Shown here: in pieces, positions 3,001 to 31,555 of the stretch | How positions within the stretch are numbered: the stretch's first letter is position 1 | How the letters are laid out: every line of letters begins with the position of its first letter | NCBI GenBank assembly: GCA_024280635.1 | Contig: JAJRPS010000032.1 | Span: 1 to 32,507, forward strand | From: Bacteroidota bacterium | GTDB lineage: Bacteria > Bacteroidota > Bacteroidia > Flavobacteriales > Flavobacteriaceae | DNA: 32,507 nt | Direction: 5' to 3' | Translations under genes and position numbers: made by a program | The notes under the pieces: model-generated | Seen by the model: only the letters and a program-made list of their open reading frames with translations | Database searches by the model: none | What the model was told of the DNA's origin: nothing

Positions 3001-4015
3001 AACACTTAACAATTCGCCAATACTACCACCTTTACCTGACCAAGAAGCATGTACCTCTTTTACGCTTCCTGTATTAAATACTGCAAATTACAATGCAGCT
3101 TATTATAGCGCATCAGGAGGAAATAGTGCCGATTTAATTGATGTATCAAATTACACCATTACCAATGAAGGTGTCAATACCATTTACGTCTATGCATCAA
3201 ACACTACCGCACCTAATTGCTTTACTGAAACTTCTTTTAATGTCACTATTTATCCATTACAAGAATTAAACATTGCTGATGGTGTCATTTGTATTGACCC
3301 TATTACAGGACACACCATACAACCTGTTTTATTGGAATCTAATATTCCAAATGGAGGGAATGGCTTTATTATCAATTGGTATCTTAATGGTACTTTAGTA
3401 CACACAGGTCTTAATTATTTAGCAAATCAAATTGGCACCTATACCATTGAAACCATAAAGAATACACCAGATGTTCCTCCATTATGCAATTACACAACCA
3501 CAACTGTAACCGTTACACAATCTAGTATTGCTACTGCAACCGTATTGGTTTCTGAAGAGTTTGAAAATGAAGGCGTATTAATTGTAACTGTAACCAGTGG
3601 TTTTGGAACCTATGAATATCAATTGGACAACGGACCTTTTCAAATCAGTAACGAATTTCACAATGTATCTTCAGGAGATCACATTATTACCGTACGTGAT
3701 GTTTCTACTGCAAATTGCGGGCAAATTACTTTAAATGCAACCATTATTATGTACCCTAAATTTTTTACTCCAAATGGAGATGGGTTTAATGACACTTGGA
3801 ACATTATTGATTTAAACAATCAACCAAAATCAGAAATTTATATCTTTGATCGTTTCGGGAAATTTATTAAATTTTTAAGACCTAATGGAGCGGGATGGGA
3901 TGGTTTATACAATGGTAGACCACTACCTTCTACTGACTATTGGTTTAAAGTTTTATATAAAAATAGTACTGGAGAAGACAAAGAGTTTAGAGCACATTTT
4001 TCATTAAAAAGATAA
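2..4015 (+). CDS. Repetitive secreted adhesin with T9SS type B sorting domain (5' partial)
   Basis: The reading frame is open from base 2 with no stop, so the true start lies left of the window. A TTG near 197 is inside the gene and is not its start. About 1,337 residues are visible. Most of it is a tandem array of Thr/Asn/Tyr-rich modules of roughly 70-90 residues (separate entry). The last ~87 residues, from YPKFFTPNGDGFNDTW to the end, are the gliding-motility-associated/type B C-terminal sorting domain used by the type IX secretion system. By family knowledge such proteins cross the outer membrane through T9SS and are cell-surface or released adhesins. The acidic, Cys-poor, strand-rich repeats fit an extended stalk of Ig-like modules (inference). 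The ligand is unknown. The next genes are on the opposite strand, so it ends its transcription unit. Confidence 0.9.
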   Translation, partial: TLLGIDPAIYDVVYFATQADIATNTPIVAPNITNYVSAGNETIYIKLFNIQSNTFCDAELNFDLLLEANIVATQPNDMQLCDVAGATAILTDQDATILNGLNPTDYTVSYYSNQNDALASTGSIGNTLTVTLATSPQTVWAAVQSNNNPDCSAVTSFQVIVNPLPPVSTIPNVIECTDFTLPTITNGIYYDAPDGPNGTGTMLNDGDVIDDAGTYYIYNGPDANGCFNQSSFVLTFIDEYSIAEDYCGEFIVPTPPAGNYYTEIDGPNGTGTLIPPGTVFTNSFTIYYYAEINGVVCRNEPFPITIHTLPPVDTLTDITECTQAILPALTNGAYYADSAGTTPLPSTTITTSQTIYIVNTETHNLGLATEITCTNSSSFDVTIINTTSDVTECGSYTLPTLTTGNYFTGPAGSGIQIPVGTVINTIGNTDVYVYAPTSTAPNCTDNLKFTVTIIANPPVDTVTPPTNLYCVDAPYVLQPLTNGAYYNAPNGPNGTGSSLVVGSSITTIGMSTIYVYNQVQWGPNPSDYCYSETSFTIETRDLPPVDNYTDVYRCDPYTLQPLTNGTYYDAPDGPNGTGNIIPTGTVISTTQTIYIYNEWADLNTCIAETVITVYILGVDVGDRADVTECDTYTLPTLDTSVVNMHYYTASGGNPADEILPANFTYNTPGTYTVFVYADNGDRFVCTDEDEFTITISATPVLPTFNNLSECGTYTLPALDTTNYNVAYYTAPNGVGLIDTSNYTITTVGTQTIYVYATAFNNTSCSDEKSFDLEIKAIPPVDALPNALNCIDDPFQLPILTNGEYFTGPGRTGAQLSAGSFINTVGTTTIYINNLVNGCDNETSFDVEIRALPTVDSFTTINECNSYTLPILANGTYYTETDGPNGTGAVLAVGTVITTTQTIYIYNNYADLTTCDSETSFDVNILGIQVDTPMDVNECDSYLLPTLDTTTINQAYYSAPGGNSADLITNLNLTIIGTQTIYIYAEINNPIFCSSESSFTVTLNNSPILPPLPDQEACTSFTLPVLNTANYNAAYYSASGGNSADLIDVSNYTITNEGVNTIYVYASNTTAPNCFTETSFNVTIYPLQELNIADGVICIDPITGHTIQPVLLESNIPNGGNGFIINWYLNGTLVHTGLNYLANQIGTYTIETIKNTPDVPPLCNYTTTTVTVTQSSIATATVLVSEEFENEGVLIVTVTSGFGTYEYQLDNGPFQISNEFHNVSSGDHIITVRDVSTANCGQITLNATIIMYPKFFTPNGDGFNDTWNIIDLNNQPKSEIYIFDRFGKFIKFLRPNGAGWDGLYNGRPLPSTDYWFKVLYKNSTGEDKEFRAHFSLKR
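524..3258 (+). repeat. About 12 tandem protein modules inside the adhesin
   Basis: Each module begins with a Cys in a context like ECxSYTLPxL, followed by an xNGxYY strand, often a GPNGTG loop, a GT-VI-TTQTIYIY strand, and a second Cys before an ETSFxVTI strand. I count twelve module starts between residues encoded at 527 and about 3050. Two sub-types alternate: a short one with xNGxYYxxxxGPNGTG and one with xDTxxxxxxYYxAxGGNxAD. The GPNGTG loops at about 583-600, 1471-1488, 1717-1734 and 2644-2662 are close in DNA as well as protein, which suggests expansion by recombination. Confidence 0.85.
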
Positions 4016-17820: not shown

Positions 17821-18966
17821 CTATTGCTTACCATTAAAAATGTTTTCAAACGCGACTTTGATTCGAGTTTTATCCTCACTTGTTAAATTAGAACCACTTG
17901 GTAGGCACAAACCTGTTTGAAATAAGGTTTCGCTAAAATTTGTCCCATAATGCGCTGTTCCTTTAAAAACGGGTTGTAAGTGCATGGGTTTCCATAATGG
18001 GCGAGATTCGATATTTGATTCTAATAAGGCTAAACGAATTTGATTGGCAGTAACACCTGCTTTTTTTTCATCCATAACCATACAGCTCAACCAATGGTTG
18101 GAGAAATAATTTGTATTAGGTTCGGTAAAAACGGTAACGCCTTCAATAGTTGCAAATATTTCTTGATACATTTTATTATTAGCTCTACGCAACCCAATGT
18201 GCTCATCCAACACTTCCATTTGTCCACGCCCAATACCTGCTACAATATTACTCATGCGGTAATTATACCCTATTTGACTATGCTGATAGTGTGGTGCTTC
18301 ATCTCGTGCTTGTGTGGCTAAAAAGATGGCTCTCTGCTTATCTGTATCTGTTTTACAGACTAATGCACCACCTCCAGAAGTGGTAATTATTTTATTGCCG
18401 TTAAAAGATAAGATTCCGAAATCACCAAACGTACCACATTTTTGACCTTTGTAGGTTGATCCTAATGCTTCTGCTGCATCTTCTATTAGTTTGATGTCGT
18501 ACTTTTTTGCAACAGCAACAATTTCATCCATTTTTGCAGGCATTCCGTACAAATGCACGACTATAATAGCTTTTGGTTTTTTGCCGTTTGCAATATTTTC
18601 TTGTATGGCTTCTTCCAAAGCAACAGGACACATGTTCCAGGTTTCTTTTTCACTATCAATAAAAACAGGTATTGCTCCTTGGTATGCAATAGGATTTGCA
18701 GATGCTGAAAAGGTAAAACTTTGACACAACACCACATCATCTCTTTGTACTCCTGATAAAATCAATGCTAAATGAATGGCTGCGGTACCTGCGGATAATG
18801 CTGCTACTTTTACGTTGTTACCTAAATAGGTTTCTAAGTCTTGCTCAAAACCGTTTACGTTGGGGCCTAAAGGTGCTACCCAATTGGCATCAAAAGCTTG
18901 TTGTACATATTTTTGCTCTGTACCGCCCATGTGTGGTGAGGACAACCATATTTTTGAGTTATTCAT
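17821..18966 (-). CDS. pglE: DegT/DnrJ/EryC1 sugar aminotransferase, PglE-like
   Basis: A 381-residue PLP-dependent aminotransferase. Lys192 in LSFNGNKIITTSGGG is the PLP lysine, Asp163 in IEDAAEALGS contacts the PLP ring nitrogen, and SAGTAAIHLAL (58-68) binds the phosphate. The start IWLSSPHMGGTEQKYVQQAF closely follows the style of PglE, which aminates UDP-4-keto-6-deoxy-GlcNAc on the way to UDP-bacillosamine. Adjacent PglD-like and PglC-like genes support that role. The 4,6-dehydratase (PglF) that would make its substrate is not in the window. It is the last gene of the locus in the direction of transcription, four bases after the acetyltransferase. Confidence 0.88.
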   Translation of the reverse strand: MNNSKIWLSSPHMGGTEQKYVQQAFDANWVAPLGPNVNGFEQDLETYLGNNVKVAALSAGTAAIHLALILSGVQRDDVVLCQSFTFSASANPIAYQGAIPVFIDSEKETWNMCPVALEEAIQENIANGKKPKAIIVVHLYGMPAKMDEIVAVAKKYDIKLIEDAAEALGSTYKGQKCGTFGDFGILSFNGNKIITTSGGGALVCKTDTDKQRAIFLATQARDEAPHYQHSQIGYNYRMSNIVAGIGRGQMEVLDEHIGLRRANNKMYQEIFATIEGVTVFTEPNTNYFSNHWLSCMVMDEKKAGVTANQIRLALLESNIESRPLWKPMHLQPVFKGTAHYGTNFSETLFQTGLCLPSGSNLTSEDKTRIKVAFENIFNGKQ

Positions 18967-18970
18967 AATA

Positions 18971-19618
18971 CTAATGAAATTTTATTGGTTTAGCAGGAAT
19001 TCCAACTGCTGTACAATTTCCTGGAATTGACTTTGCTACCACAGCACCTGCTCCAATAATAGTATTTTCTCCTATTTCCAATTGATTAATAATTTTAGCA
19101 CCCGTACCTACATATACTGATTTATGAATAATTACTTCTCCTGAAATATTAACGGAAGGCATAAAAGAAGAGAAAGCTTCAATTATAGTATCGTGTCCAA
19201 CTGTGCAAGATAAATTTAAGGTAACAAAATTACCTAATTTAATATCACAAGTTAAAATATTACCTGCGGTAATAATAGAGCCTTTTCCTATTTCTATATT
19301 ATTCTCAGATTTAATTACTGATGGATGGATTAATGTTGGGTAAACTATATTTTTATTTGTAATGCTTTTTACAATCTTTTCCTTAAGGTTTGGCACTCCA
19401 ATTCCTAATACAACATTTAATTTTCCTGTAATTTCATTTAAGTCCTCTACACAACCCAAAACTGGAAGATCATGTATTAAGGTTCCTTTTTCTATTCCGT
19501 CATCATAAAAACCTACAACCTCATATTGAACACCCTTTTTTGAGGCATTTATATCTTCTATTAATGACTTTACCTCTCGCCCAAAGCCACCAGCTCCTAT
19601 TATTACTATTTTACTCAT
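18971..19618 (-). CDS. pglD: Sugar O/N-acetyltransferase with left-handed beta helix, PglD-like
   Basis: 215 residues from ATG 19618 (MSKIVIIGAGGFGREV). An ATG at 19648 lies within the preceding gene and adds sequence not typical of the family. The N-terminal Rossmann-like half IVIIGAGGFGREVKSLIED binds the nucleotide sugar, and the C-terminal half is hexapeptide repeats, with GHDTIIEAFSSFMPSVNISG containing the catalytic His of this family. It would acetylate the 4-amino group made by the neighbouring aminotransferase. It overlaps the pglC stop by eight bases (ATGAGTAA), which means tight coupling. Confidence 0.88.
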   Translation of the reverse strand: MSKIVIIGAGGFGREVKSLIEDINASKKGVQYEVVGFYDDGIEKGTLIHDLPVLGCVEDLNEITGKLNVVLGIGVPNLKEKIVKSITNKNIVYPTLIHPSVIKSENNIEIGKGSIITAGNILTCDIKLGNFVTLNLSCTVGHDTIIEAFSSFMPSVNISGEVIIHKSVYVGTGAKIINQLEIGENTIIGAGAVVAKSIPGNCTAVGIPAKPIKFH

Positions 19619-20216
19619 TTCCTGTAAATCTTGTTGTTGTAGCTTCACCTACTCTGTTGATTCCTTCTGTTTTAAATACTTTTTGAACCGTTTTAAATAA
19701 AATTTTAATATCTAATGTTAAACTTATATTGTTTACATACCACACATCATATTCAAACTTTTTTTGCCAACTGATGGCGTTACGTCCATTTACTTGTGCC
19801 CAACCTGTTATTCCGGGTTTAACTAAATGTCGTTTCTGTTGGTCTTCATTATACAAAGGTAAATATTCTGGCAATAGTGGGCGTGGACCTATTAAACTCA
19901 TATCGCCCTTTAATACATTGATGAGTTGCGGTATTTCATCTAAAGATGTTTTACGAATAAATTTTCCTAATGCTGTTAACCTAATTTCATCTGACAGTAA
20001 GTTACCCTGCTTGTCTTTTTTGTTATTCATAGTTTTAAACTTGATTACCTTGAATATTTTACCATTTTTACCTGGGCGGTCTTGAAAAAAGAAAGCGCTG
20101 CCTTGGTTGTTGATTATTAAGATTACATACACGATAATAAATACTGGAAATAGTATTAACAAGCCCATTAAGGCTACTAAAAAATCTAAAAAAGGTTTGA
20201 GTATGGTTTTATACAT
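19611..20216 (-). CDS. pglC: Undecaprenyl-phosphate phosphosugar transferase, PglC-like
   Basis: A 201-residue monotopic transferase that moves a phospho-sugar (bacillosamine type) to undecaprenyl phosphate, starting the lipid-linked glycan at the inner membrane. The single N-terminal hydrophobic segment is at about 12-35 (FLVALMGLLILFPVFIIVYV). The catalytic Asp-Glu pair is in RKTSLDEIPQLINVLKGDMS, followed by LIGPRPLLPEY and RHLVKPGITGWAQVNGRNA, all core signatures of the small phosphoglycosyl transferases. This is the minimal form without the large N-terminal WbaP-type domain. Four bases separate it from the upstream lipoprotein gene. Confidence 0.93.
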   Translation of the reverse strand: MYKTILKPFLDFLVALMGLLILFPVFIIVYVILIINNQGSAFFFQDRPGKNGKIFKVIKFKTMNNKKDKQGNLLSDEIRLTALGKFIRKTSLDEIPQLINVLKGDMSLIGPRPLLPEYLPLYNEDQQKRHLVKPGITGWAQVNGRNAISWQKKFEYDVWYVNNISLTLDIKILFKTVQKVFKTEGINRVGEATTTRFTGNE

Positions 20217-20219
20217 TGT

Positions 20220-20768
20220 TTAATTTTCTAACGAATCTAAAGCTTTTTTATTAAGCATGATAATTGGCAAATATTTACCTGCTACCATTTTTGTTGTTAA
20301 GATCCCTGATAACTCATCAAAGTCGACATATTTAGAGGTTTTAATAAAGTCATTAAAATTACCTTTATCAATTTTAATCATAATGTCATCCGTAAAAAGT
20401 CGTAAACTATTTAATTTAATTTTTTGCTCTTTTTTTGCTCCAAATATAAATTGCACATACTCTGGAAATGAATTATTTTCCAAATCATACTCCAAATCGA
20501 TTGTTTGAGGTATACTTACTTCTTTTATAGAAAAATACTCAATTATCCTTTTTTTTGGCTCATCTGGATTTTTTATTTTTATTTGAAATAAACCTTCTGT
20601 GTCTGTTTCAAAATTCATTTCAACTTTTAAAGCAATCTTATCTAATAGCTCTGTCTTTTTAGTAAAAACTGCAGCTTCTTCTGTGTTTTGTTCTACACTT
20701 GACTTACTCTTATCTGACTTACAAGATAACAACATCAAAACGGTTAATAAAAAAAATATTTTTTTCAT
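20220..20768 (-). CDS. Predicted lipoprotein of unknown function inside the glycan locus
   Basis: 182 residues. MKKIFFLLTVLMLLSC is a lipoprotein signal with Cys16 as the lipidated residue, followed by KSDKSKSSVEQ. The mature part has a beta-rich look, with alternating hydrophobic and charged residues (LKVEMNFETDTEGLFQIKIK, then a conserved-looking FGAKKEQKIKLNSLRLF). It ends in a Ser/Leu/Asn-rich tail. No recognised domain. It sits between the GT4 gene and pglC with gaps of 10 and 3 bases, so it is co-transcribed with the glycan genes. A role in export or anchoring of the glycan at the outer membrane is possible but not shown. Confidence 0.8.
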   Translation of the reverse strand: MKKIFFLLTVLMLLSCKSDKSKSSVEQNTEEAAVFTKKTELLDKIALKVEMNFETDTEGLFQIKIKNPDEPKKRIIEYFSIKEVSIPQTIDLEYDLENNSFPEYVQFIFGAKKEQKIKLNSLRLFTDDIMIKIDKGNFNDFIKTSKYVDFDELSGILTTKMVAGKYLPIIMLNKKALDSLEN

Positions 20769-20778
20769 GTTACATATT

Positions 20779-21927
20779 TTAAAATAATTGGTACTCTTTT
20801 AATAATTCGTTCCAGACAAATTCTCGTTGGTACTTTTCTAGCATTCTATTTCTTGCAAAATTAGACATTTTAACCATACTATTTACATCATTACAACAAA
20901 AACCCATCATATTTACTAAGTTTTCTGTGCTTTTTACTGGAACAATAAAACCGTTTTTACCTTCTAAAATTATTTCATTACAACCGTTAATATCAGACAC
21001 TATACTGGGCAAACCCATTGCCCCTGCCTGCATGACTACATTTGGAAACCCCTCTCTATAACTTGGGAAAACCAACACATCGGCAATTGCAAAATACGGA
21101 CGTACATCTTGCTGATATCCTACGGGTATAATTTTAGGGTTATTATTTATTTGTTGTATCGTTTGCGCTTTTAATGGGTCTAAATCCGTTTCTAAAGGCC
21201 CTACTAATAACAATTTTATATTTGAATTATCATTTAATAAGCTCGTAAAAGCCGATATCAGCTCATTAATACCTTTATCGCCTACAATACGACCTACAAA
21301 TATAAAAACAAAATCTTTTTTTGTAATGCCTAAAGATTTTTTTAAGTTATTATTGGTACTTTCAGAATACACCTTAGGATTAAAATAAGTGGTATCAATA
21401 CCGTTTGAACTCCCGTTTGCAATTACTTTTAATTTATTTGTGGTTGTAAAGCCCTCGTCAATTATAATTTGTTGCAAGCCAAAAGAGTTTGGATATACTT
21501 TTGTAGCACAACGGTAGGTTAACTTTTCAACAAAATTTAAAATTTTTCTTTTAAACCCCGTTGCCTCCATTAAGGGCATTCCTGCAACAGTATGTAGCCT
21601 ATTGGGTACTTTTGCTAAATAAGACGCTAACATACCTACAATACCTGCTTTTGGGGTATGCGTATGTACTATAAAAGGCTTTTCGTTTTTTAAATACTTA
21701 TATAGTTTTAGTACCGCCTTTAGGTCTTGTAAGGGGGTGATTTTACGAGTAAGTGCCACCTCAAAGGTTTTTACCCCTTGTTGCTCCCCAAATTGCGATA
21801 AACGTTCTTTATCTGCTGAAATTGCCGTTATCTCATAGTAATCAGACATGAATTTTAGCTGATTTTCTAAAAGTTTCTCTAAAGAAATAGGTACTGTAGT
21901 TATTCTAATTAGTTTTTTCAAAATCAC
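20779..21927 (-). CDS. GT4-family glycosyltransferase, PglA-like
   Basis: A 382-residue GT-B enzyme. The N-terminal half carries VHTHTPKAGIVGMLASYLAK (acceptor-side HTHTPK motif of PglA-like enzymes). The C-terminal half has FIFVGRIVGDKGINELISAF and the nucleotide-sugar motif YREGFPNVVMQAGAMGLPSI. The usual EX7E pair is changed: the first Glu is present, but the second position is Gln (EGFPNVVMQ). The protein should add the second sugar onto the lipid-linked first sugar at the cytoplasmic face. It is the only clear glycosyltransferase in the whole locus. The gene is 21 bases from the upstream membrane-protein gene and 10 from the lipoprotein gene. Confidence 0.88.
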   Translation of the reverse strand: MILKKLIRITTVPISLEKLLENQLKFMSDYYEITAISADKERLSQFGEQQGVKTFEVALTRKITPLQDLKAVLKLYKYLKNEKPFIVHTHTPKAGIVGMLASYLAKVPNRLHTVAGMPLMEATGFKRKILNFVEKLTYRCATKVYPNSFGLQQIIIDEGFTTTNKLKVIANGSSNGIDTTYFNPKVYSESTNNNLKKSLGITKKDFVFIFVGRIVGDKGINELISAFTSLLNDNSNIKLLLVGPLETDLDPLKAQTIQQINNNPKIIPVGYQQDVRPYFAIADVLVFPSYREGFPNVVMQAGAMGLPSIVSDINGCNEIILEGKNGFIVPVKSTENLVNMMGFCCNDVNSMVKMSNFARNRMLEKYQREFVWNELLKEYQLF

Positions 21928-21948: not shown

Positions 21949-23022
21949 CTAATGTTTGTGAATTACAGGAATGTTTTTATTGTGTAAATTACAAAATAAT
22001 ACAAAAAATAAATAAGGCACAAACATTACTCTCATTCTTGAAGCTAACCCCATATTATACATGTAAATACTATAAAATAAAATTAAAAAAACAGCAACCA
22101 ACAACGGGAATAACATATTCCTATTAAAAAATAAAATTCTATTAACCACTAATAATTTTACTATAATACCCCACGTTAATATATTTTCAATAGACACAAT
22201 CAATTGCTTATAGGTAATTGATTCAAAAACAAAAGGCCTAAAAAGTACTAAAATAAAACGGTCAAAATAATTAGAATTAGCTAAATCAATAGAAGATTTT
22301 CCATTTTGTTGCGCATATAAAACCACTTGATGAAACGCTTTATTAAAATTTAAAATACTTAGGGTTTCTAATTTCAGAAAACTTTGAAGAATTGGGAATG
22401 TAGTTATTAGAAGCAAAAGTAAGCCACCTACTATAACAATTCCCTTTTTTAAATTAAATGAATTATTAAAAACATAATGAATAGCAAATGCTATTACTAA
22501 AATAAAAAATACATATGGTCTAATCATTAATACGAAAAACAACACAATAACTATTTGAAAAAGTTTTTTTTTAGTACTATATAAATGATGTAAAATAAAA
22601 GTCATTAAATAAAATAGTAATGCATCTTTACTTATAAAACTTGTCCAAAAATGAAGTGTTGGCAATAGTAAAAAAATCAAATACAAATATGCATTTGAAT
22701 TATCGTCCTCTTTACTGTCATTAAATAACATATCAACAAATAGCAAAAAACCTTTCAAACCAATTAATGAAAACACTACTGAAATAACAATAGGAGGGAT
22801 ATTTAATGTAACTAACGGGTATATTAAAAAGGTTATAAATTTAGAACCTGTTCCAAATAAATCAAACCAATTATTACTCGCAGATGCTAATTTGTAAAAA
22901 CGATCTGGATCAGTCATTTTTAAAACAGACACCAAATACAACCATGAAATAATTGTAAAAACCAAATGATATATTATAACTATACTCTTTATATTTTTTT
23001 TACTACTCAATTGCTTTAACAT
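21949..23022 (-). CDS. Multi-pass membrane protein, paralog A, putative glycan polymerase or GT-C
   Basis: 357 residues with about ten hydrophobic segments and no signal peptide. Landmarks: SDP-like TDPDRFYKL near residue 38, WFDLFGTGSKFITFLIYPLV, the motif LPTLHFWTSFISKDALLF near 121, MIRPYVFF near 166, LFRPFVFESI and the C-terminal YNMGLASRMRVMFVPY. The same landmarks occur in the same order in the next gene upstream (23003-24148), so the two are paralogs. I recognise no named family. Position and topology suggest a Wzy/EpsG-type polymerase or a GT-C-type membrane glycosyltransferase (inference). ATG 23022 overlaps the end of the neighbour by 20 bases. Confidence 0.8.
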   Translation of the reverse strand: MLKQLSSKKNIKSIVIIYHLVFTIISWLYLVSVLKMTDPDRFYKLASASNNWFDLFGTGSKFITFLIYPLVTLNIPPIVISVVFSLIGLKGFLLFVDMLFNDSKEDDNSNAYLYLIFLLLPTLHFWTSFISKDALLFYLMTFILHHLYSTKKKLFQIVIVLFFVLMIRPYVFFILVIAFAIHYVFNNSFNLKKGIVIVGGLLLLLITTFPILQSFLKLETLSILNFNKAFHQVVLYAQQNGKSSIDLANSNYFDRFILVLFRPFVFESITYKQLIVSIENILTWGIIVKLLVVNRILFFNRNMLFPLLVAVFLILFYSIYMYNMGLASRMRVMFVPYLFFVLFCNLHNKNIPVIHKH

Positions 23023-24148
23023 TATTTTTCTTTAGATTATTAAAGTAATAGAGTAAGTATATAAAAATTGGTACAATCATATATTTTTGCCTGTTTACCA
23101 ATCCTAAATTATATATTAGATATGAATTTACAATTAAAAATATTAGGCAGTATAAAAAAAGTACCTTAAGTTTAAATGACTTTTTAAAATGCTGATAATT
23201 AAATACTATTATGAATTTTATAAAAAGTATGAAAAAAAATAAATTTTCAAAGGACACATATAATTGTCCTATTCCTTTCGCATCATAGAAAAAAGGTCTA
23301 AACAGGTAAGCAAATATTTTTTCTAGCCACCCCATTTGCTTGGGATCCAAAAAAGAACCTTCTTTTTTGTAATGTGAATAATAGCTAACATTATCTAGAC
23401 GTTCTGAAAAATATGTCATAATATCTATTTTTAATAAGTATAAAATTAAAAATCCAGCTATCAATCCAAAAAACATCAACCCTATCAGCAGTAAGAAACG
23501 TTTTGACGAATTAATCTTTTGAAAGGAAAAGACAAGTGTTATAGCTAATAAAGCAAAAATTAGCAAATATGGTCTAACAAAGACTAGAATTAAAATTGGC
23601 AATATAACTTTTATATAAATAAATTCTTTCCTTATAAATTCTCTTAACAAAAACATTGTTGCCATAAAGGTAAGACTATCTTTTCCTAAAAAAGACATCC
23701 AAACATGATACATTGGCAAGAATAAAATTAAATATTTAATGTCTACAGACCCAATTTTCAGCACTTTAAATTGCAATAACATATCATATAATAACAAAAA
23801 AGAAACTATTGAAAAAATACCAAAGAAAATAAAAATCGTATAGTAATTAAAAAATAGGTAGTTTACAAATGGGTATATTAAAAATCGAATTGAAGTAGAG
23901 CTTACTCCAAATAAACTAAACCATGTCTCCGCCTCCTGTGCATGCAAAAAATACATCGGAGGGTCCGAATGAGTTCCTGCAGAAAAAAAAGCAGATATAT
24001 ATGTTAAACCGATTTGGAAGACAACTAAAAAGAAGACAATTGGTAATGATATATGTTTTTTTTTTGCATACTTAAAGGCAAAATGAAATATTAAAATAAT
24101 TAAGACTAATTGAATAATTATATTATATGCAGTATATATTAATTCCAA
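23003..24148 (-). CDS. Multi-pass membrane protein, paralog B, putative glycan polymerase or GT-C
   Basis: 381 residues with about ten hydrophobic segments. It shares with paralog A: GTHSDPPMYF, WFSLFGVSSTSIRFLIYPFV, LPMYHVWMSFLGKDSLTF, FVRPYLLI, LFRPFFYD, SFENLF and YNLGLVNRQKYMIVP. A TTG at 24148 is the start: an in-frame stop lies two codons upstream and the first internal ATG is at about residue 65, so a shorter protein would lose the first helix. The start is two bases after the stop of the acetyltransferase gene. Function unknown; see paralog A. Confidence 0.8.
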   Translation of the reverse strand: MELIYTAYNIIIQLVLIILIFHFAFKYAKKKHISLPIVFFLVVFQIGLTYISAFFSAGTHSDPPMYFLHAQEAETWFSLFGVSSTSIRFLIYPFVNYLFFNYYTIFIFFGIFSIVSFLLLYDMLLQFKVLKIGSVDIKYLILFLPMYHVWMSFLGKDSLTFMATMFLLREFIRKEFIYIKVILPILILVFVRPYLLIFALLAITLVFSFQKINSSKRFLLLIGLMFFGLIAGFLILYLLKIDIMTYFSERLDNVSYYSHYKKEGSFLDPKQMGWLEKIFAYLFRPFFYDAKGIGQLYVSFENLFFFILFIKFIIVFNYQHFKKSFKLKVLFLYCLIFLIVNSYLIYNLGLVNRQKYMIVPIFIYLLYYFNNLKKNNVKAIE

Positions 24149-24151
24149 ATT

Positions 24152-24721
24152 TTATATTTTTTTTAATTGCTTTACGGGTACTCCTCCGTAAATATAGCAG
24201 GATTCTAAATTTCTATTTACTACTGCTCCTGCAGCAACAATTACTCTCTCATGTATTGTTATTCCGCTAAGCACTCTAACTCCACAGCCAATCCAAACAT
24301 CATCTCGTATTTCTAACCCATTTTTTATTATATCATTATATTTAATGGGTCTCTTTTTATCTAAATAAGTATGTGTGCCTGAAAGTAATGTTGAATTATG
24401 GGCTATAGAAACATTTGAACCTATGCTAATTTCTCCACCTGCATCAATATAACAGTTGTCATGGATTGAAACATTTGAACCCAACTCAAGAAAATTCCAA
24501 CCTTTAATAGTTACATTTGTTCCTATCACAACATTATCTTCACAAGTTTTAGCTCTAACTTTTAAAATTAAATACCTCAACAAGATAAATGGCAGTTGAG
24601 AGTAAGGCTTACTCATATCCCAAAAAAATTGCAATAAAAATTTAGGAAATATTCGAAATATCACAACCAATATATTAATTATCGGCTTCACTTTATTATA
24701 TAAATTTCTCTTGTTATTCAT
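24152..24721 (-). CDS. Hexapeptide-repeat acyltransferase
   Basis: 189 residues. A hydrophobic N-terminal segment (about 12-50) is followed by left-handed beta-helix repeats from about 64 (VVIGTNVTIKGWNFLELGSN). NSTLLSGTHTY holds the catalytic-type His, and IGCGVRVLSGITIHERVIVA and GGVPVKQLKK form the end typical of maltose/galactoside O-acetyltransferase-like enzymes. It probably O-acetylates a sugar of the glycan using acetyl-CoA. Its ATG overlaps the deacetylase stop by four bases (ATGA), so it is translated from the same operon. Confidence 0.87.
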   Translation of the reverse strand: MNNKRNLYNKVKPIINILVVIFRIFPKFLLQFFWDMSKPYSQLPFILLRYLILKVRAKTCEDNVVIGTNVTIKGWNFLELGSNVSIHDNCYIDAGGEISIGSNVSIAHNSTLLSGTHTYLDKKRPIKYNDIIKNGLEIRDDVWIGCGVRVLSGITIHERVIVAAGAVVNRNLESCYIYGGVPVKQLKKI

Positions 24722-25695
24722 CGTTTGTTAAAATACTTATTATAAATATCTATCATGCTAGAAGATCTCATTTGATACTTTTCATGCAAAAAAGTATAAT
24801 GATTTATTATTTCCTTTAAACTCTCCATTGATTTTTCTGGATTCTCTCCAAAGTTATGTGGGTGCCACCACAAATGATAACATTTATTATTTTTTGCAGC
24901 ATCTGTCATTTCATTTTTAATTCTAATATTTCTTAGCTTATTTAGTACTGAAAATTTACTTATGGGCTTTAAAAACCTACTTGACGGCAATAAAACTAAT
25001 TTATTTGCATAGGTCTCTATTTCACTAATATCATACACTGTATTTGTAATTGGAAAATAACAATCTAATGTTCTTACAGCTTTTTTTATAAAAGTTTCTT
25101 TCTTATTTATATCCCAAAACCAATCTTTTGGATTCGCTCTTACTACATTAATATCATGACTAAGACAATTTTCTAAATATTCTTTATTAAACTGATTTCT
25201 AGGAAAAACTAAGGAATAGCATTCTGACTTTAACCTCTTAATCTGTTTGTCAAATAATTTAAGGTCTAACTCAAAATCTGCTTTACCTTGTCCCTCTTCT
25301 AAGCAGTAATAATGAGAAAATGTATGAGATGCTAACTCCTGTCCTTTTGTTTTAAAAATTTCATCTATCAATATTGGTGCAAAATGACAAACTCCATTTA
25401 AAAGTGATTTTTCATTCTCACCTCCCCATACATATGCAGATAATTTTTTATTTAAATAGCAGGGATATAACTCTGGTTTTATTTCCTTCCATTTTTCATA
25501 GTTTTCTAAGAATAACATTCCAACAGTTGCCCATGTAGCATTTATATTGCTACTAGCAAAGATTTCTAGTATTTTTGGAATTACCATTTTGGTTTTTGTG
25601 AAATATTTCACATTATCCTCAACAATCATCTTATCAAAAACACCCCAATGTAACTCAAAATCTAATGATATTATAAATTCTCCTTTTTTCATCAT
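24718..25695 (-). CDS. NodB-type polysaccharide deacetylase
   Basis: 325 residues from ATG 25695 (MMKKGEFIISLDFELHWG). That start overlaps the previous stop by four bases, while an ATG at 25728 lies deeper in the upstream gene. FIISLDFELHWGVFD holds the first metal Asp and the catalytic-base region in the variant SxDFE form, and LASHTFSHYYCLEEG holds the HxxxH metal ligands. WWHPHNFGENPE near the end carries the last catalytic His. The family removes N- or O-acetyl groups from sugars. With no signal peptide, it would work on a cytoplasmic lipid-linked intermediate (inference). It lies between two acyltransferase-type genes. Confidence 0.85.
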   Translation of the reverse strand: MMKKGEFIISLDFELHWGVFDKMIVEDNVKYFTKTKMVIPKILEIFASSNINATWATVGMLFLENYEKWKEIKPELYPCYLNKKLSAYVWGGENEKSLLNGVCHFAPILIDEIFKTKGQELASHTFSHYYCLEEGQGKADFELDLKLFDKQIKRLKSECYSLVFPRNQFNKEYLENCLSHDINVVRANPKDWFWDINKKETFIKKAVRTLDCYFPITNTVYDISEIETYANKLVLLPSSRFLKPISKFSVLNKLRNIRIKNEMTDAAKNNKCYHLWWHPHNFGENPEKSMESLKEIINHYTFLHEKYQMRSSSMIDIYNKYFNKR

Positions 25696-26735
25696 ACCGT
25701 ATCTGAATCTGAATAGCTTAAGTACCAATTTTCTCTTTTACTCAATAACTTAGCATTTGTAGAACTCAGTAACCTATACCCAAAATGTAACTCTATTGGC
25801 TTTAACTTCTCTGGAATCTTAAAAAACCCATTTTTTTTATAACTTTTATAATTAGGAGAAAAACTAAAGCACCAACTCAATATAACATCAGCCTCGTCTT
25901 TCTTAATTTGTTTTACAGCAAACCCTAACAATTCTTCGCCTACCCGAGGAATTAATGGGTCATAAATTAACTCCATAATATAGCCTATTTTACCGTTATG
26001 TTTTTCTTTTACACAAAAAACAACAAAACCAATATACTTATTATCTTCGTCATATGAATGAATAATTCTATAATTTTCATTTGGCTTTTGCAAATATCTC
26101 CATGTTAAATAAGACTGATCTCTTTTTATAGAAACCGAAAAATGTTTTGAAAAAATTGCCCAAACTTGGTTTACGTCTTCTGAAAATGAAAAATCCTCCA
26201 GCAATCTATATTTATAGTTAATTTTCCTTTCCAATAAGGGCAATTTTAAATTTGGGATCCAACGTAAATAACTTATTTTACTAGAAAAATATTTTGTATT
26301 TAGTGGTTTTATTAAAAAAGGTAATGGGTCATGATTTTCCCATTCCAACTTCTTAGTAAACCCATGAATAGAATTCCCATTTGGAAACCCATAAACTAAC
26401 TCTAATTTTTCTTGCTTTCCTTTTTCATATACTAAATTAGCCAAATGAGTAAAAAGTCCTTTCCCTCTATAATTTATATCTGTAATTGTATCTAATGATT
26501 GTGCAGCTAAAAAATCTTTATTACCTATTTGAAAAACAACAGTTGAAATTGCGTATATTCCTGCTGTTCGCTGCTTAGCATCATCTCTTGCAATAATCGT
26601 AAAATCATTTGGTAGCTTGTTTTTAAAAAATTGCCAAATGATATTTTGTTTATTCTTAGTTCCTCCATTTTCTGAAAAACAACTTGTATAATCTTCTAAA
26701 TTATCACCCCTTAAACTAATATAATTAAATTTCAT
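25692..26735 (-). CDS. GNAT-fold N-acetyltransferase
   Basis: 347 residues. DTITDINYRGKGLFTHLANL near residue 90 is the acetyl-CoA-binding motif A (RGKGLF) of GNAT enzymes, and YGFPNGNSIHGFTKKLEWEN follows the style of large GNAT proteins found in glycan loci. The second half, from about 170, looks like another degenerate GNAT-like domain (YIGFVVFCVKEKHNGKIGYIM). It may acylate an amino sugar or attach an amino acid (inference). It overlaps the flippase gene by 11 bases and the deacetylase by 4. Confidence 0.75.
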   Translation of the reverse strand: MKFNYISLRGDNLEDYTSCFSENGGTKNKQNIIWQFFKNKLPNDFTIIARDDAKQRTAGIYAISTVVFQIGNKDFLAAQSLDTITDINYRGKGLFTHLANLVYEKGKQEKLELVYGFPNGNSIHGFTKKLEWENHDPLPFLIKPLNTKYFSSKISYLRWIPNLKLPLLERKINYKYRLLEDFSFSEDVNQVWAIFSKHFSVSIKRDQSYLTWRYLQKPNENYRIIHSYDEDNKYIGFVVFCVKEKHNGKIGYIMELIYDPLIPRVGEELLGFAVKQIKKDEADVILSWCFSFSPNYKSYKKNGFFKIPEKLKPIELHFGYRLLSSTNAKLLSKRENWYLSYSDSDTV

Positions 26736-27984
26736 TTTTATTCGTTTTTAAATAATAAAAGTAACTTATAAAATACAATATACATATTATTGTTTCAGTA
26801 TATATAAGGTAATTTACAAATTTATATATTGTTAAATTATTTTGATTTAAAGTTACCATTATAATTAATAACACTAAACCTATTACACTTATTGGTACTT
26901 TTATATAATGTTTTCGCATACAAGTTAACGAGGTGCTTAAAAAAGAATATAAATACGAAATACCGCTAGAAATTGCTATCAGGAATAACAATTTACTATG
27001 TTTAGCATATTCTTCCGTAAATAAAAACCTTAATATATACTCTCCTGTATAATTTAAAATTATTACTAAAAATCCCCCTATAAAAGCCCCTAAAATCACT
27101 AGTTTTAAAACCAATTGATTAAATTTTTTTATTTTATTTAACCCATATAGGTTTGATAATTTTGGTTCTACCAAATTAATTATTTGCGTTAATATTTGCC
27201 CCCCTATTGCCTTAAAATATATTATTGAACCGAAAATTGCTAAAGTTTCTAATCCAAAATATTTTTTAACAGATAGATTAGGGTAACTTTCATAGTATTT
27301 CATAACAATTTCAAGGAAAAACAATGTCCAAGCAAAAAAGAATATTTTCTTTACTTTTTTAAAATTAAAATACTCCTTAAATCGTAAAAAGTGCAAATCT
27401 TTTTTTCTAGCCATTGGGATGTCAAGAAAAAGGAGTACCGATAATGATATCAATACCCATGCTAGTATTACATTTTCAAATTTAAAATTTAAAACTAATC
27501 CTAAATAAACTACAGCTATAATTAAAATACCATTTATAGTTTTTGACACTCCTATAAAGACCATCTCTTGCTTTTTTTGATATACAGCATGACACATTTC
27601 CGACTGACTTTCAATGATCTTAATAAAAAGAATTAACATCAATATTGGTATTTGTTCTATATTAGATAAATATGCAATGATAAGAACACTTAATACTGTT
27701 ATTACATTCCCGATTATTCGCAAACTATGATAATCTTGTATTTTTAATTGCTCGTCCGTTTCTGTTACAAAAAGACTTCTTAACTGTAAGTTTAGTGGAA
27801 TAAAAATTGGCTTTATAAAAGTTAAAGCGTAAATATAAATACCCACTTCTTCTTGTGAGTAATTTTTAGTAAATAATATTAAAATTAAATACTGTATACC
27901 ATAATAAAAAAAATTACTAAATACTAAAGAAATAAAATTTGCTTTATTTTGATTTGACTTTATAAAACTATCAACCTTACTCAT
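26725..27984 (-). CDS. Polysaccharide flippase, Wzx/PST type
   Basis: 419 residues with about twelve to fourteen hydrophobic segments. The N-terminal NFISLVFSNFFYYGIQYLIL, TKNYSQEEVGIYIYALTF and LNLQLRSLFVTE match the Wzx/MATE-like polysaccharide transporter family in pattern. It should flip undecaprenyl-linked oligosaccharide across the inner membrane. Positively charged residues face the cytoplasmic loops (FKEYFNFKKVKK). ATG 27984 overlaps the wzy stop by eight bases (ATGAGTAA), the same junction as between pglC and pglD. Confidence 0.88.
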   Translation of the reverse strand: MSKVDSFIKSNQNKANFISLVFSNFFYYGIQYLILILFTKNYSQEEVGIYIYALTFIKPIFIPLNLQLRSLFVTETDEQLKIQDYHSLRIIGNVITVLSVLIIAYLSNIEQIPILMLILFIKIIESQSEMCHAVYQKKQEMVFIGVSKTINGILIIAVVYLGLVLNFKFENVILAWVLISLSVLLFLDIPMARKKDLHFLRFKEYFNFKKVKKIFFFAWTLFFLEIVMKYYESYPNLSVKKYFGLETLAIFGSIIYFKAIGGQILTQIINLVEPKLSNLYGLNKIKKFNQLVLKLVILGAFIGGFLVIILNYTGEYILRFLFTEEYAKHSKLLFLIAISSGISYLYSFLSTSLTCMRKHYIKVPISVIGLVLLIIMVTLNQNNLTIYKFVNYLIYTETIICILYFISYFYYLKTNKNEI

Positions 27985-29277
27985 AATTCTCTGTTGTTCT
28001 CGCCATTATCACATTTCTTTTAATGAAAAAACTATTAAATAGTCCGAAAAAATAAACACCATAAATCCTATCTAGCACATTTTCAAATAAAAAATTTATT
28101 AAAATTAAACTAATAAATACTACAAATAAAACATCTTTTTTATCTATAGACATATTGATATTATTAACTATTAACCCTAAAAAAAGAAGCAAACATATTA
28201 AACCTCCAGCAATTGTAAAAGACAGATACTGATTATGAGTATTATAATTATTGTTCTTTAATATATCATACGTTTTATTCGACTTGTTTTTATAACAATT
28301 ATTCAACTCCTGTTGCTGGTCACCTATCCCTACACCAAAAATTATATGTTTTTTTGACAACTCCCATCCGCATTCCCATATTTCTTGCCTAAAATCATTT
28401 TCAATTTTAATTTTAATTTTTTTACCCTGTTTTTTTACAGTCTCAAAATTCATACCTATTAAAATTAATGTCACAAAAGTAACTACAAAGGCAATTACTT
28501 TTCTTTTTAATAAATAACTAACGCTTAAAATAATAGCACCAAATACAAAACCAATAATATTAGGTAATGATTGCATATAAAATACGAAGAAGCTTATTAT
28601 AATTAATGAGATGAATAGAAACAAATTTATGTAAATCTCATGTTTTTTATGCAATAATTTATAAATAATTATCAACCCAGACAAAGCTAATGATAAAGAA
28701 ATATATGCTTTATGGAAGAACAAATATATTTTAAAATCCCTTGAAGACCAATTAAAAGGTACGTTATATGGTGTTAACACAAATATTTCTATTTTTTTAA
28801 ACATATTTGCATCAATCAAGAACATCATTTTTTTAAATGATAAAATATCAATCGCAATGTTAAAAACATACACGCATAAAGCTATGTTGACAATAACAAA
28901 AACTCCAAGTAAAAACTCCATCGATTTTTCTGTAATATTCAAAAACCTCAAAAAGGAAATTGGAAAAATCAGTAGAAGAATTAGTTTCAATATTTCCCGT
29001 AAACCTTCATTGAAATTTTGAGAATATATTAATGAAAAAATAAGTGCTAAAAAAATAAAAATGACAGTAGTAATTCTTTTTTATTATATTTTGTTTGCTT
29101 TTTATTTCGAAAATTAATACTAATTACAACTACAGAAACCGAAACACCTATAAAACCAATTAATTTAATTGGAAGTAAAGGAAACAAGAACAATATACAT
29201 AACAAAATGAAATTAAAACTTTCAAGTTTCGTTAATTTCTTAAATAAAAAATCTAACACAATTTGCTTACCTCTCAC
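27977..29277 (-). pseudogene. Wzy/O-antigen ligase-type polymerase gene, split by a one-base frameshift
   Basis: Two frames together encode one family-like protein. The first (29277-29047, 76 residues) has KLTKLESFNFILLCILFLFP and LPIKLIGFIGVSVSVVVISI, then SFLFF and a TAG in a T7 run (A7 on the plus strand, 29049-29055). One extra T would fuse it to LALIFSLIYSQNFNEGLREI and on into the second frame without a stop, giving 433 residues, a normal Wzy/WaaL length. The second frame carries DFRQEIWECGWELSKKHIIF, GVGIGDQQQELNNCY and NTHNQYLSFTIAGG, the Wzy_C-type signature region. A start at 28990 would need a TTG with no family support. It could be a real mutation, phase variation, or a sequencing error. 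Confidence 0.75.
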
Positions 29278-30271
29278 AATACCATTTTACAGTTTTTTCA
29301 ATCCCCTCAGTAAACGAATATTTTGGATGATACCCAATTAATTCTTTTCCTTTTGAAATGTCCGCTAAAGAATGTACTACATCTCCTGCTCTATTAGGTC
29401 CGTGATTTATTTTTGTTTTGTCTGATGCAATACTCAACGCTTTTAAACCTGATTTTATTGCTACTACCAAGTCATTTAAATTGATGTTTTCACCATACGC
29501 TACATTATAAATTTGATTTACCGCCTTTGGATGATCGGATAGTGCTGCTTTAATATTGGCTTGCACTACATTTTCAATAAAAGTAAAATCACGCGAATGC
29601 AAACCATCACCATTTATGGTAATATCTTCTTTATTCAAAAACTGACCAATAAACTTCGGTATTACTGCTGCATACGCTCCATCTGGATCTTGACGTTGCC
29701 CAAACACGTTAAAATAACGCAATCCAATAGTTTCCAATCCGTAGGTTTTATAAAAAACATCGGCATACAACTCGTTTACATATTTGGTTACTGCATACGG
29801 TGATAAAGGTTTTCCTATTTCATCTTCTACTTTTGGCAACCCTGGATGATCCCCATAGGTAGATGAACTTGCTGCATACACCATCCGTTTTACGGTGCCA
29901 GATTCTTTTGCGGCAACCAACATATTCAAATGCCCCGAAACATTTACTGCATTGGTCGTTATTGGGTCATTTATAGAACGAGGTACGGAACCCAATGCTG
30001 CTTGATGCAACACGTAATCTACATTAACCATTGCTTTTTTACAGGTTTCCAAATCTCTAATATCACCTTCAATTAACTCACAACGGGAATCTTTTAAAAA
30101 AGGTGTTATGTTTTTTAAATGCCCTGTTGCAAAATTATCTAAAATGATAACTTTTTTAACTTCGTGTTTTAAAAGGTATTCTACTAAATTAGAACCGATA
30201 AATCCTGCTCCACCTGTTACTAAAAAGGTAAATTGTGATAAATCTTTGGTATGATATGCTGTTTGATACAT
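29267..30271 (-). CDS. UDP-HexNAc C4-epimerase, WbpP/TviC-like
   Basis: 334 residues, extended SDR family. GGAGFIGS (20-27) binds NAD, the catalytic Tyr159-xxx-Lys163 is in SPYAVTKYVNELY, and SSSTYG (135-140) holds the Ser/Thr. The opening FTFLVTGGAGFIGSNLVEYL with LDNFATGHLKNI matches WbpP/TviC, which interconverts UDP-GlcNAc/GalNAc and their uronic acids. Together with the dehydrogenase encoded just upstream it would supply UDP-GalNAc-uronic acid. It ends within the first codons of wzy (11-base overlap) and starts three bases after the dehydrogenase stop. Confidence 0.88.
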   Translation of the reverse strand: MYQTAYHTKDLSQFTFLVTGGAGFIGSNLVEYLLKHEVKKVIILDNFATGHLKNITPFLKDSRCELIEGDIRDLETCKKAMVNVDYVLHQAALGSVPRSINDPITTNAVNVSGHLNMLVAAKESGTVKRMVYAASSSTYGDHPGLPKVEDEIGKPLSPYAVTKYVNELYADVFYKTYGLETIGLRYFNVFGQRQDPDGAYAAVIPKFIGQFLNKEDITINGDGLHSRDFTFIENVVQANIKAALSDHPKAVNQIYNVAYGENINLNDLVVAIKSGLKALSIASDKTKINHGPNRAGDVVHSLADISKGKELIGYHPKYSFTEGIEKTVKWYCER

Positions 30272-30274
30272 TTA

Positions 30275-31555
30275 TTATAATCTTTTCGTTACTATTGATT
30301 CTGGCAATGTTCCTTTTACATCATACACTACTGCATTTTTGTTTTGCAATGCTTTTAAATCTAATTTCTTAAATTTATCATGCGCTACGGTATGTATAAT
30401 GGCATCGTATTTTTTACCTGTAATGTCTGCTACGGTATCCATACCATATTCATGTTGTACTTCTTCGGCATTTGCCCACGGATCATATACCTCAACATCC
30501 ATGTGAAAATCTTTTAATTGACGATACACATCAATTGCCTTGGTGTTTCTAATGTCTGGGCAGTTTTCTTTAAAGGTAATCCCAAGCATCAATACTTTTG
30601 CATTTTTTACTGGAATTTCATTCTGTACCAACAACTTCAACACCTCTGTTGCTACATATTCGCCCATAGAATCATTTAAGCGTCTTCCTGCTAAAATAAT
30701 TTCTGGGTGATAGCCTACTTCTTGTGCTTTTTGTGCTAAATAGTACGGGTCAACACCTATACAATGTCCGCCAACCAATCCTGGTTTAAAAGGAAGAAAA
30801 TTCCATTTTGATGCTGCTGCTGCCAATACCGCATGGGTATCAATATCTAATTTATTAAATATTTTTGCCAGTTCATTTACAAAAGCAATATTAATATCAC
30901 GCTGTGCATTTTCTATCACCTTAGCAGCTTCTGCTACTTTTAATGATGGAGCTAAATGCGTACCTGCTGTAATAATCGACAAGTATAACTCATTTACTAC
31001 CGCTCCTATTTCTGGAGTAGAACCTGATGTTACTTTTTTAATTTTGGTTACCGTATGGGTTTTATCTCCTGGATTAATGCGTTCTGGCGAATATCCGCAG
31101 AAAAAATCTTTATTGAATTTTAATCCACTTTCTTTTTCTAAAACAGGCACACAATCGTCTTCTGTAACTCCTGGATATACGGTAGATTCATAAATGACGA
31201 TATCTCCTTTTTTTAGTACTTTACCAATTGTTTCCGAAGCTTTAATTAACGGTGTTAAAATAGGACGGTTATTTTTATCTACTGGTGTAGGTACGGTTAC
31301 AATATATACATTACAAGATGCTAAATCTGAAGTATTGCAACTTAGTTTTATTCCGTTATCTTCTAAATTTAAAACCGATTGCAAGTTTTCATCTGAAACC
31401 TCTAAAGTAGCATCATGTCCGCCATTTAAAGCATTTACTCTACTTTGATTGATATCAAAACCGATTACTTTATATTTTTTAGCAAATTCTACTGCTAAAG
31501 GTAAGCCTACATATCCTAAACCAATTACGGCAATTTTTTTATCTTGTAAATTCAT
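30275..31555 (-). CDS. UDP-HexNAc 6-dehydrogenase, WbpO/TviB-like
   Basis: 426 residues. IGLGYVGLPLAVEFA (11-25) is the NAD site, and YESTVYPGVTEDDC is typical of the UDP-GlcNAc/GalNAc dehydrogenase branch. Lys207 lies in SLKVAEAAKVIENAQRDINI. Cys265 in LVGGHCIGVDPYYLA is the catalytic thiol, and LGITFKENCPDIRNTKAIDV is in the UDP-binding C-terminal domain. It oxidises the sugar C6 alcohol to a carboxylate with two NAD. It is the first gene of the polysaccharide operon, with 167 bases to scoA and no clear consensus promoter in that gap. Confidence 0.92.
   Translation of the reverse strand: MNLQDKKIAVIGLGYVGLPLAVEFAKKYKVIGFDINQSRVNALNGGHDATLEVSDENLQSVLNLEDNGIKLSCNTSDLASCNVYIVTVPTPVDKNNRPILTPLIKASETIGKVLKKGDIVIYESTVYPGVTEDDCVPVLEKESGLKFNKDFFCGYSPERINPGDKTHTVTKIKKVTSGSTPEIGAVVNELYLSIITAGTHLAPSLKVAEAAKVIENAQRDINIAFVNELAKIFNKLDIDTHAVLAAAASKWNFLPFKPGLVGGHCIGVDPYYLAQKAQEVGYHPEIILAGRRLNDSMGEYVATEVLKLLVQNEIPVKNAKVLMLGITFKENCPDIRNTKAIDVYRQLKDFHMDVEVYDPWANAEEVQHEYGMDTVADITGKKYDAIIHTVAHDKFKKLDLKALQNKNAVVYDVKGTLPESIVTKRL

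Follow-up and report, generated by a model that had tools for sequence, protein, structure and literature searches.

The window, a stretch of 32,507 nucleotides representing a contig from an incomplete Flavobacteriaceae genome, contains a glycan locus in which two adjacent genes encode membrane proteins of an unrecognised family, here termed A and B. The locus raises the question which step of polysaccharide assembly these proteins may catalyze, and whether they share one task or have two. To address this question, homology and gene context were analysed computationally, as were the predicted fold, the conservation of residues, the topology from loop charge and the replacement by other genes.

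The A and B proteins and their locus

Both genes, A and B, are read from the minus strand, with a 20-base overlap like that of operon genes translated together (Table 1). A preliminary description of this DNA had proposed two adjacent paralogous membrane proteins; open reading frames were found accordingly, and A and B are paralogues with 29% identity over 359 columns (BLASTP, E 3e-27). The ordered landmarks WFxLFG, FLIYP, LPxxHxWxSFxxKDxLxF, RPY, LFRPF, SxEN and YNxGLxxRx6VP, which had been named as common to the two, were all located in A and in B. Scans of both proteins against Pfam and NCBIfam gave nothing credible, in agreement with the earlier view of an unrecognised family; a single Pfam match, to a phage base-plate domain (E 0.003), was below the cut-off and was dismissed. 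Sequence searches of the PDB with the family, by single sequence and by profile, gave no match. The family is an unnamed family of Bacteroidota and is covered by no Pfam or NCBIfam model. Members were found in 34 of 397 sampled Flavobacteriaceae genomes (~9%; sequence searches) and in 25 of 395 Bacteroidota genomes (profile search); searches of plasmid and viral contigs yielded no relatives.

Table 1. Genes and proposed functional residues of the locus, with positions in the window.
Feature	Position	Strand	Remark
DegT/PglE-like aminotransferase	17821..18966	(-)	sequence + position
PglD-like acyltransferase	18971..19648	(-)	sequence + position
PglC-like initiating phosphoglycosyltransferase	19611..20216	(-)	sequence; 201 aa, cluster c1
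Small putative lipoprotein	20220..20768	(-)	no Pfam match; only in three A-B loci
GT4 glycosyltransferase	20779..21927	(-)	next gene after A in most loci
Protein A, GT-C membrane protein (predicted), 357 aa	21949..23022	(-)	constant family member adjoining GT4-PGT
A Arg329	22036..22038	(-)	counterpart of B Arg353
A Arg168	22519..22521	(-)	counterpart of B Arg192
A Lys132	22627..22629	(-)	counterpart of B Lys156
A Asp38	22909..22911	(-)	counterpart of B Asp62
Protein B, GT-C membrane protein (predicted), 381 aa, TTG start	23003..24148	(-)	member in variable polymerase slot
B Arg353	23090..23092	(-)	invariant 79/79; aligned with EpsG Arg299
B Arg192 (RPY)	23573..23575	(-)	core-invariant, K/R in distant relatives; aligned with EpsG His173
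B Lys156	23681..23683	(-)	invariant 79/79; aligned with EpsG Arg139
B Asp62, proposed catalytic base, first periplasmic loop (DxxxY)	23963..23965	(-)	near-invariant; aligned with EpsG Asp52
Hexapeptide acetyltransferase	24152..24721	(-)	
Polysaccharide deacetylase-like protein	24718..25728	(-)	weak, E 0.0056; homologues match PF01522
GNAT acetyltransferase	25692..26735	(-)	
Wzx flippase candidate	26725..27984	(-)	weak MatE match; polytopic, position
Wzy_C protein (O-antigen ligase/polymerase type)	27977..28990	(-)	out of frame near start in assembly
SDR nucleotide-sugar epimerase	29267..30271	(-)	sequence
Nucleotide-sugar dehydrogenase	30275..31555	(-)	sequence

Besides the initiating phosphoglycosyltransferase (PGT), the locus encodes one ordinary glycosyltransferase, a GT4, and its Wzy_C gene is broken in this assembly, both as previously described. 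The frame break (window 27977-29270) is located at a T-rich run, and may be real or an assembly error. It had been suggested that the A-B pair compensates for the missing Wzy; in relatives that carry the A-B pair, the reading frame of Wzy_C is intact (417 aa in L062 and about 418 aa in L075), hence no such compensation is needed and the suggestion was dropped. Between the window and L062, identity is 41% for A, 60% for B and 69% for Wzx, and A is the least conserved gene of the operon, barring the acyltransferase (33%, perhaps not orthologous). The small putative lipoprotein has no known domain, and is encoded also in the A-B loci L062 (12200-12760) and L075 (2470-3018). The region is preceded by a large, repetitive surface protein (window 2-4015) whose C-terminal domain is of the gliding/T9SS type.

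Predicted fold and conserved residues

AlphaFold models were of pLDDT 87 for B and 83 for A. When the B model was compared with solved structures using VIA-align, rows 1-33 were all GT-C enzymes of the ArnT/PMT/OST/ALG type (Z 9.0-16.1) and the next row dropped to 5.2; the top matches were Pmt4 (16.1), ArnT (15.2) and ALG12 (14.8), and AglB, PglB, STT3, AftA/AftB and DPY19 were also among them. For the A model, rows 1-31 were all GT-C (Z 8.5-14.7, with ArnT at the top at 14.7), followed by a row at 5.3. The GT-C fold, which the preliminary description had named as one to look for, was hence found with both models. Foldseek alone gave no significant E-value (best, 0.55), and the fold claim therefore rests on VIA-align, on the sharp drop in its scores, and on an independent profile match: in hhalign, the family profile matched Flavobacteriaceae PMT_2 with 91% and EpsG with 73% probability, and proteins from the same loci with ~1% (Wzy_C) and 0.3% (Wzx). 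WaaL and SEDS proteins did not rank high in the structure comparisons, which is not proof of a different fold. Among 31 members scanned against Pfam, single weak matches to EpsG (one member, E 0.006) and to DUF2142 were observed, and the cut-off of the EpsG model (PF14897) was reached neither by A or B nor by any of the 31 relatives. A and B are predicted to be GT-C fold proteins of the ArnT/PMT/PglB/ALG type. Their models comprise features of GT-C_A enzymes, i.e. a GT-C transmembrane core with a periplasmic first loop, and in this loop an acidic residue (D62 in B, D38 in A) that aligns with the Asp region of PMT_2 and with the Asp of EpsG.

In the alignment of 31 relatives, the residues P145, H148, W150, K156, R192, P285, E301, N302, N347, G349 and R353 (B numbering) are invariant, and D62 is invariant wherever the alignment covers this position. 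When distant relatives were included (79 sequences), K156, P285, G349 and R353 remained invariant and D62 almost invariant; R192, which does not vary within the core family, is Lys or Arg in the distant relatives. Every invariant residue of the family is retained in both A and B. The preliminary description had listed a Lys-Asp, an Arg-Pro and an Arg as invariant: the Lys, the Arg of RPY (with the Arg/Lys exchange in distant relatives) and R353 were borne out, but relatives have D, E or G at the Asp of the KD motif. That list did not contain D62 (D38 in A), the acidic residue of greatest importance. The charged residues had also been placed in predicted loops; basic loops alternate along the sequence, and topology by loop charge assigns all invariants to the periplasmic face. 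The D, K, R, RP, E, G and R residues are also retained in a distant subfamily (~440 aa; L120-L130), whose members occur here and there in other families of Bacteroidota, next to varied genes.

Gene context and replacement by canonical polymerases

The typical gene order is a family gene directly upstream of genes for a GT4, a PglC-like PGT, a PglD-like acyltransferase, a DegT aminotransferase and CapD. In Flavobacterium psychrophilum, the reducing-end sugar is Qui2NAc4NR, placed there by the same Pgl-type module, and it is this sugar that Wzy connects with the following repeat (PMC6519341); a linkage of a polymerase gene with the module is therefore expected.

Ten sulfated-type loci were scanned, up to about 50 kb each; sulfotransferases and the CysN-like GTPase were identified by the scan, and CysC/CysD were assigned from gene order. 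All ten contain a single family gene and one Wzx gene, or two in one locus, and in none of them was a further polytopic candidate for a polymerase found within 14 kb. The family member is hence the sole polymerase candidate of a Wzx locus in the sulfated type (10/10), whereas the clade of the window has another polymerase. The loci L089, L095, L098, L100 and L103-L108 comprise sulfate-activation-type genes, sulfotransferases, Wzx, Wza/Wzc-like genes and a family member; such a widespread Flavobacteriaceae cluster of sulfotransferases with a family member points to sulfated exopolysaccharides. In three loci of the second clade, L084 (10816-14406), L086 and L090, the family gene is near that of a ~1200 aa protein without Pfam match, away from recognised glycan genes.

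For comparison, 20 loci were examined that encode a close PGT and lack a member of the family. A canonical polymerase was found in 13 of these, i.e. EpsG in four, Wzy_C in eight (two of them just under the cut-off) and PF14296 in one, often encoded just upstream of GT4-PGT. Among loci with a family gene, none of the ten of sulfated type and none of the nine of the second clade has a canonical polymerase (0/19 pooled); comparison with 13/20 gives Fisher p-values of 0.001 and, pooled, 1e-5, which are optimistic because the loci are related.

A replacement was observed also within the window's own type of locus. Eight loci with the Wzy_C of cluster c17 share the frame dehydrogenase - epimerase - Wzy_C, Wzx, a variable part, and A-GT4-PGT. 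In four of the eight, a second polymerase of canonical type is encoded in the variable part: Wzy_C in L063, PF01901 in L064 and L065 (scanned in L065, common to L064 by cluster), and PF14296 in L092. The other four (the window, L062, L075 and L067) hold B, and B was never seen together with a canonical second polymerase (4:4). Because the two are mutually exclusive in these loci, the repeat-polymerase role was assigned to B. Most loci of the A clade (L063-L065, L068, L069 and L092) encode a canonical polymerase as well, and A is therefore probably not the repeat-unit polymerase there. The c17 Wzy_C itself may be a ligase or a polymerase.

In the phylogenetic tree, A and B form separate, strongly supported clades. 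B occurs only alongside A (4/4 loci); A is mostly single-copy, as most family loci hold one copy, hence homologues are not always paired in glycan loci, a point that the preliminary description had raised. Other pairs of independent origin are those in L072, L073 and L112, and in L078 and L079, which puts the separate origins of pairing at three or more. In Lacinutrix algicola (L067 9869-12124), A continues in frame into the GT4 as one fusion protein of 751 aa, suggesting that both act on the same substrate. The earlier proposal that the two copies have different jobs agrees with their separate clades, and with the finding that B substitutes for canonical polymerases and A does not. The pair had also been proposed to supply polymerisation or sugar-transfer steps; gene context points to polymerisation, but not to filling in for Wzy.

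Proposed function and likeness to known systems

We consider A and B to be extracytoplasmic GT-C glycosyltransferases that belong to an unnamed family of Bacteroidota polymerases, equivalent to Wzy and distantly related to EpsG, at a probability of roughly 0.6. In the window locus, B is probably the repeat-unit polymerase, and A, with less certainty, a second linkage-forming enzyme; in its own clade, A may act as second polymerase, ligase or branch transferase. Substrate, chemistry and division of labour between A and B are what we infer from the computed results. The mechanism that we propose follows the example of GT-C enzymes. Repeat units would be built in the cytoplasm on undecaprenyl-pyrophosphate by the PglC-like PGT and the GT4, and be flipped by Wzx. 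At the periplasmic face, the family enzyme would bind the lipid-pyrophosphate-linked glycan via the invariant Lys156, Arg192, Arg284 and Arg353, and Asp62 of the first periplasmic loop would activate the acceptor hydroxyl; transfer to the next unit would take place from the reducing-end sugar of the glycan, probably as an inverting reaction. A may make a second linkage tied to the conserved PglC/PglD/PglE-type initiating sugar, probably Qui2NAc4N-like. We tentatively suggest, as a possibility on the doubtful side, that two GT-C polymerases work in one pathway on one lipid-linked glycan, one for the variable repeat linkage and one for the conserved linkage at the Qui2NAc4N-like initiating sugar. 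If so, some polysaccharides of Bacteroidota would be assembled by two dedicated polymerases.

Several observations count against a polymerase function: a Wzy_C gene is likewise present in the window locus, the profile match to EpsG is moderate (73%), the best solved GT-C matches include many users of lipid-monophosphate sugars (ArnT, PMT, ALG), and the genes in L084, L086 and L090 are not beside recognised glycan genes. The third of these would fit with transferases similar to Gtr, GT136 or ArnT, which add side branches in the periplasm from Und-P-monosaccharides, as would the co-occurrence of A with canonical polymerases; Und-P-sugar GT-C systems are also common in O-antigen loci (PMC11127046). 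The partners required for such a system were, however, not found: no GtrA-type flippase exceeded the cut-off in 20 genomes (one sub-threshold match), evidence against side chains made by a Gtr-type lipid-monophosphate system, and the ten sulfated-type loci were found to encode neither a small polytopic flippase nor a membrane-anchored GT2, though they may encode larger MATE-type flippases like those of GT136 systems. Side-branch transferases would also leave the sulfated-type loci without any polymerase, and we regard this alternative as unlikely.

We consider it still less probable that B is a polymerase and A a PglB-like ligase or transferase, which would move the Und-PP-linked glycan to lipid A-core, another lipid or protein. 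A is indeed a fixed neighbour of the initiating PGT-GT4 module, in contrast to the variable polymerase slot, and OST/PglB enzymes are among the structural matches; however, relatives at the same position in sulfated-type capsule/EPS loci are the sole polymerase candidates, and the usual ligase candidates are Wzy_C proteins. Presence in only ~9% of the sampled Flavobacteriaceae genomes (34/397) means that the family does not serve protein O-glycosylation in general. An obligate heterodimer of A and B with one active subunit, of which the preliminary description had spoken, appears very improbable: the genes are adjacent and overlapping, and B is never without A, but all invariant residues are kept in each of the two proteins, most A-type genes are single, and A and B are about 5 kb apart in L067.

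Many capsule and sulfated-exopolysaccharide clusters of Bacteroidota appear to be polymerase-less because no profile model recognises this family, and naming it would fill the apparent gap. It would also make directly testable which enzyme of the periplasm determines how the repeats of marine sulfated polysaccharides are linked.

Among known systems, Wzy_C/WaaL proteins (PF04932) are like the family in that they are polytopic, encoded in the same loci and have a periplasmic active site; they differ in that the family has no PF04932 match (profile, ~1%), WaaL is a poor Foldseek match (TM 0.22), and Wzy_C/WaaL are usually missing from sulfated-type loci with a family member. The GT-C_A enzymes ArnT, PMT, PglB/STT3 and ALG9/ALG12 share the predicted fold and the position of the catalytic Asp, but sequence identity is ~10%, the family lacks the large C-terminal domain, and gene context suggests lipid-PP-oligosaccharide rather than lipid-P-monosaccharide donors. 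The CAZy clan GT-C3 (GT122-GT124) comprises inverting bacterial polysaccharide polymerases with a long loop near the N-terminus and with one Asp, one His and two Arg, the conserved residues being located on the outer face (PMC10920833). By this published description, on which the comparison is based, the family is similar in its conserved Asp, basic residues, long N-terminal loop and outer-face location; if EpsG represents the clan, the conserved His is replaced by Arg in the family.

EpsG (PF14897) is an accepted Wzy polymerase family and is used as such in Acinetobacter (PMC10715181). It resembles the A/B family in its long loop near the N-terminus, its polymerase-type gene context and the profile probability given above. 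In an unguided profile alignment, the EpsG invariants D52/R139/H173/R299 fall on D62/K156/R192/R353 of B, i.e. D/R/H/R and D/K/R/R at the same positions, with Lys and Arg in place of Arg and His; RP, FRP, SxEN and NxG are invariant in the family but not conserved in EpsG. The family is probably a new GT-C polymerase family with a distant relationship to EpsG, and would link EpsG-type polymerases with the GT-C enzymes ArnT, PMT and PglB.
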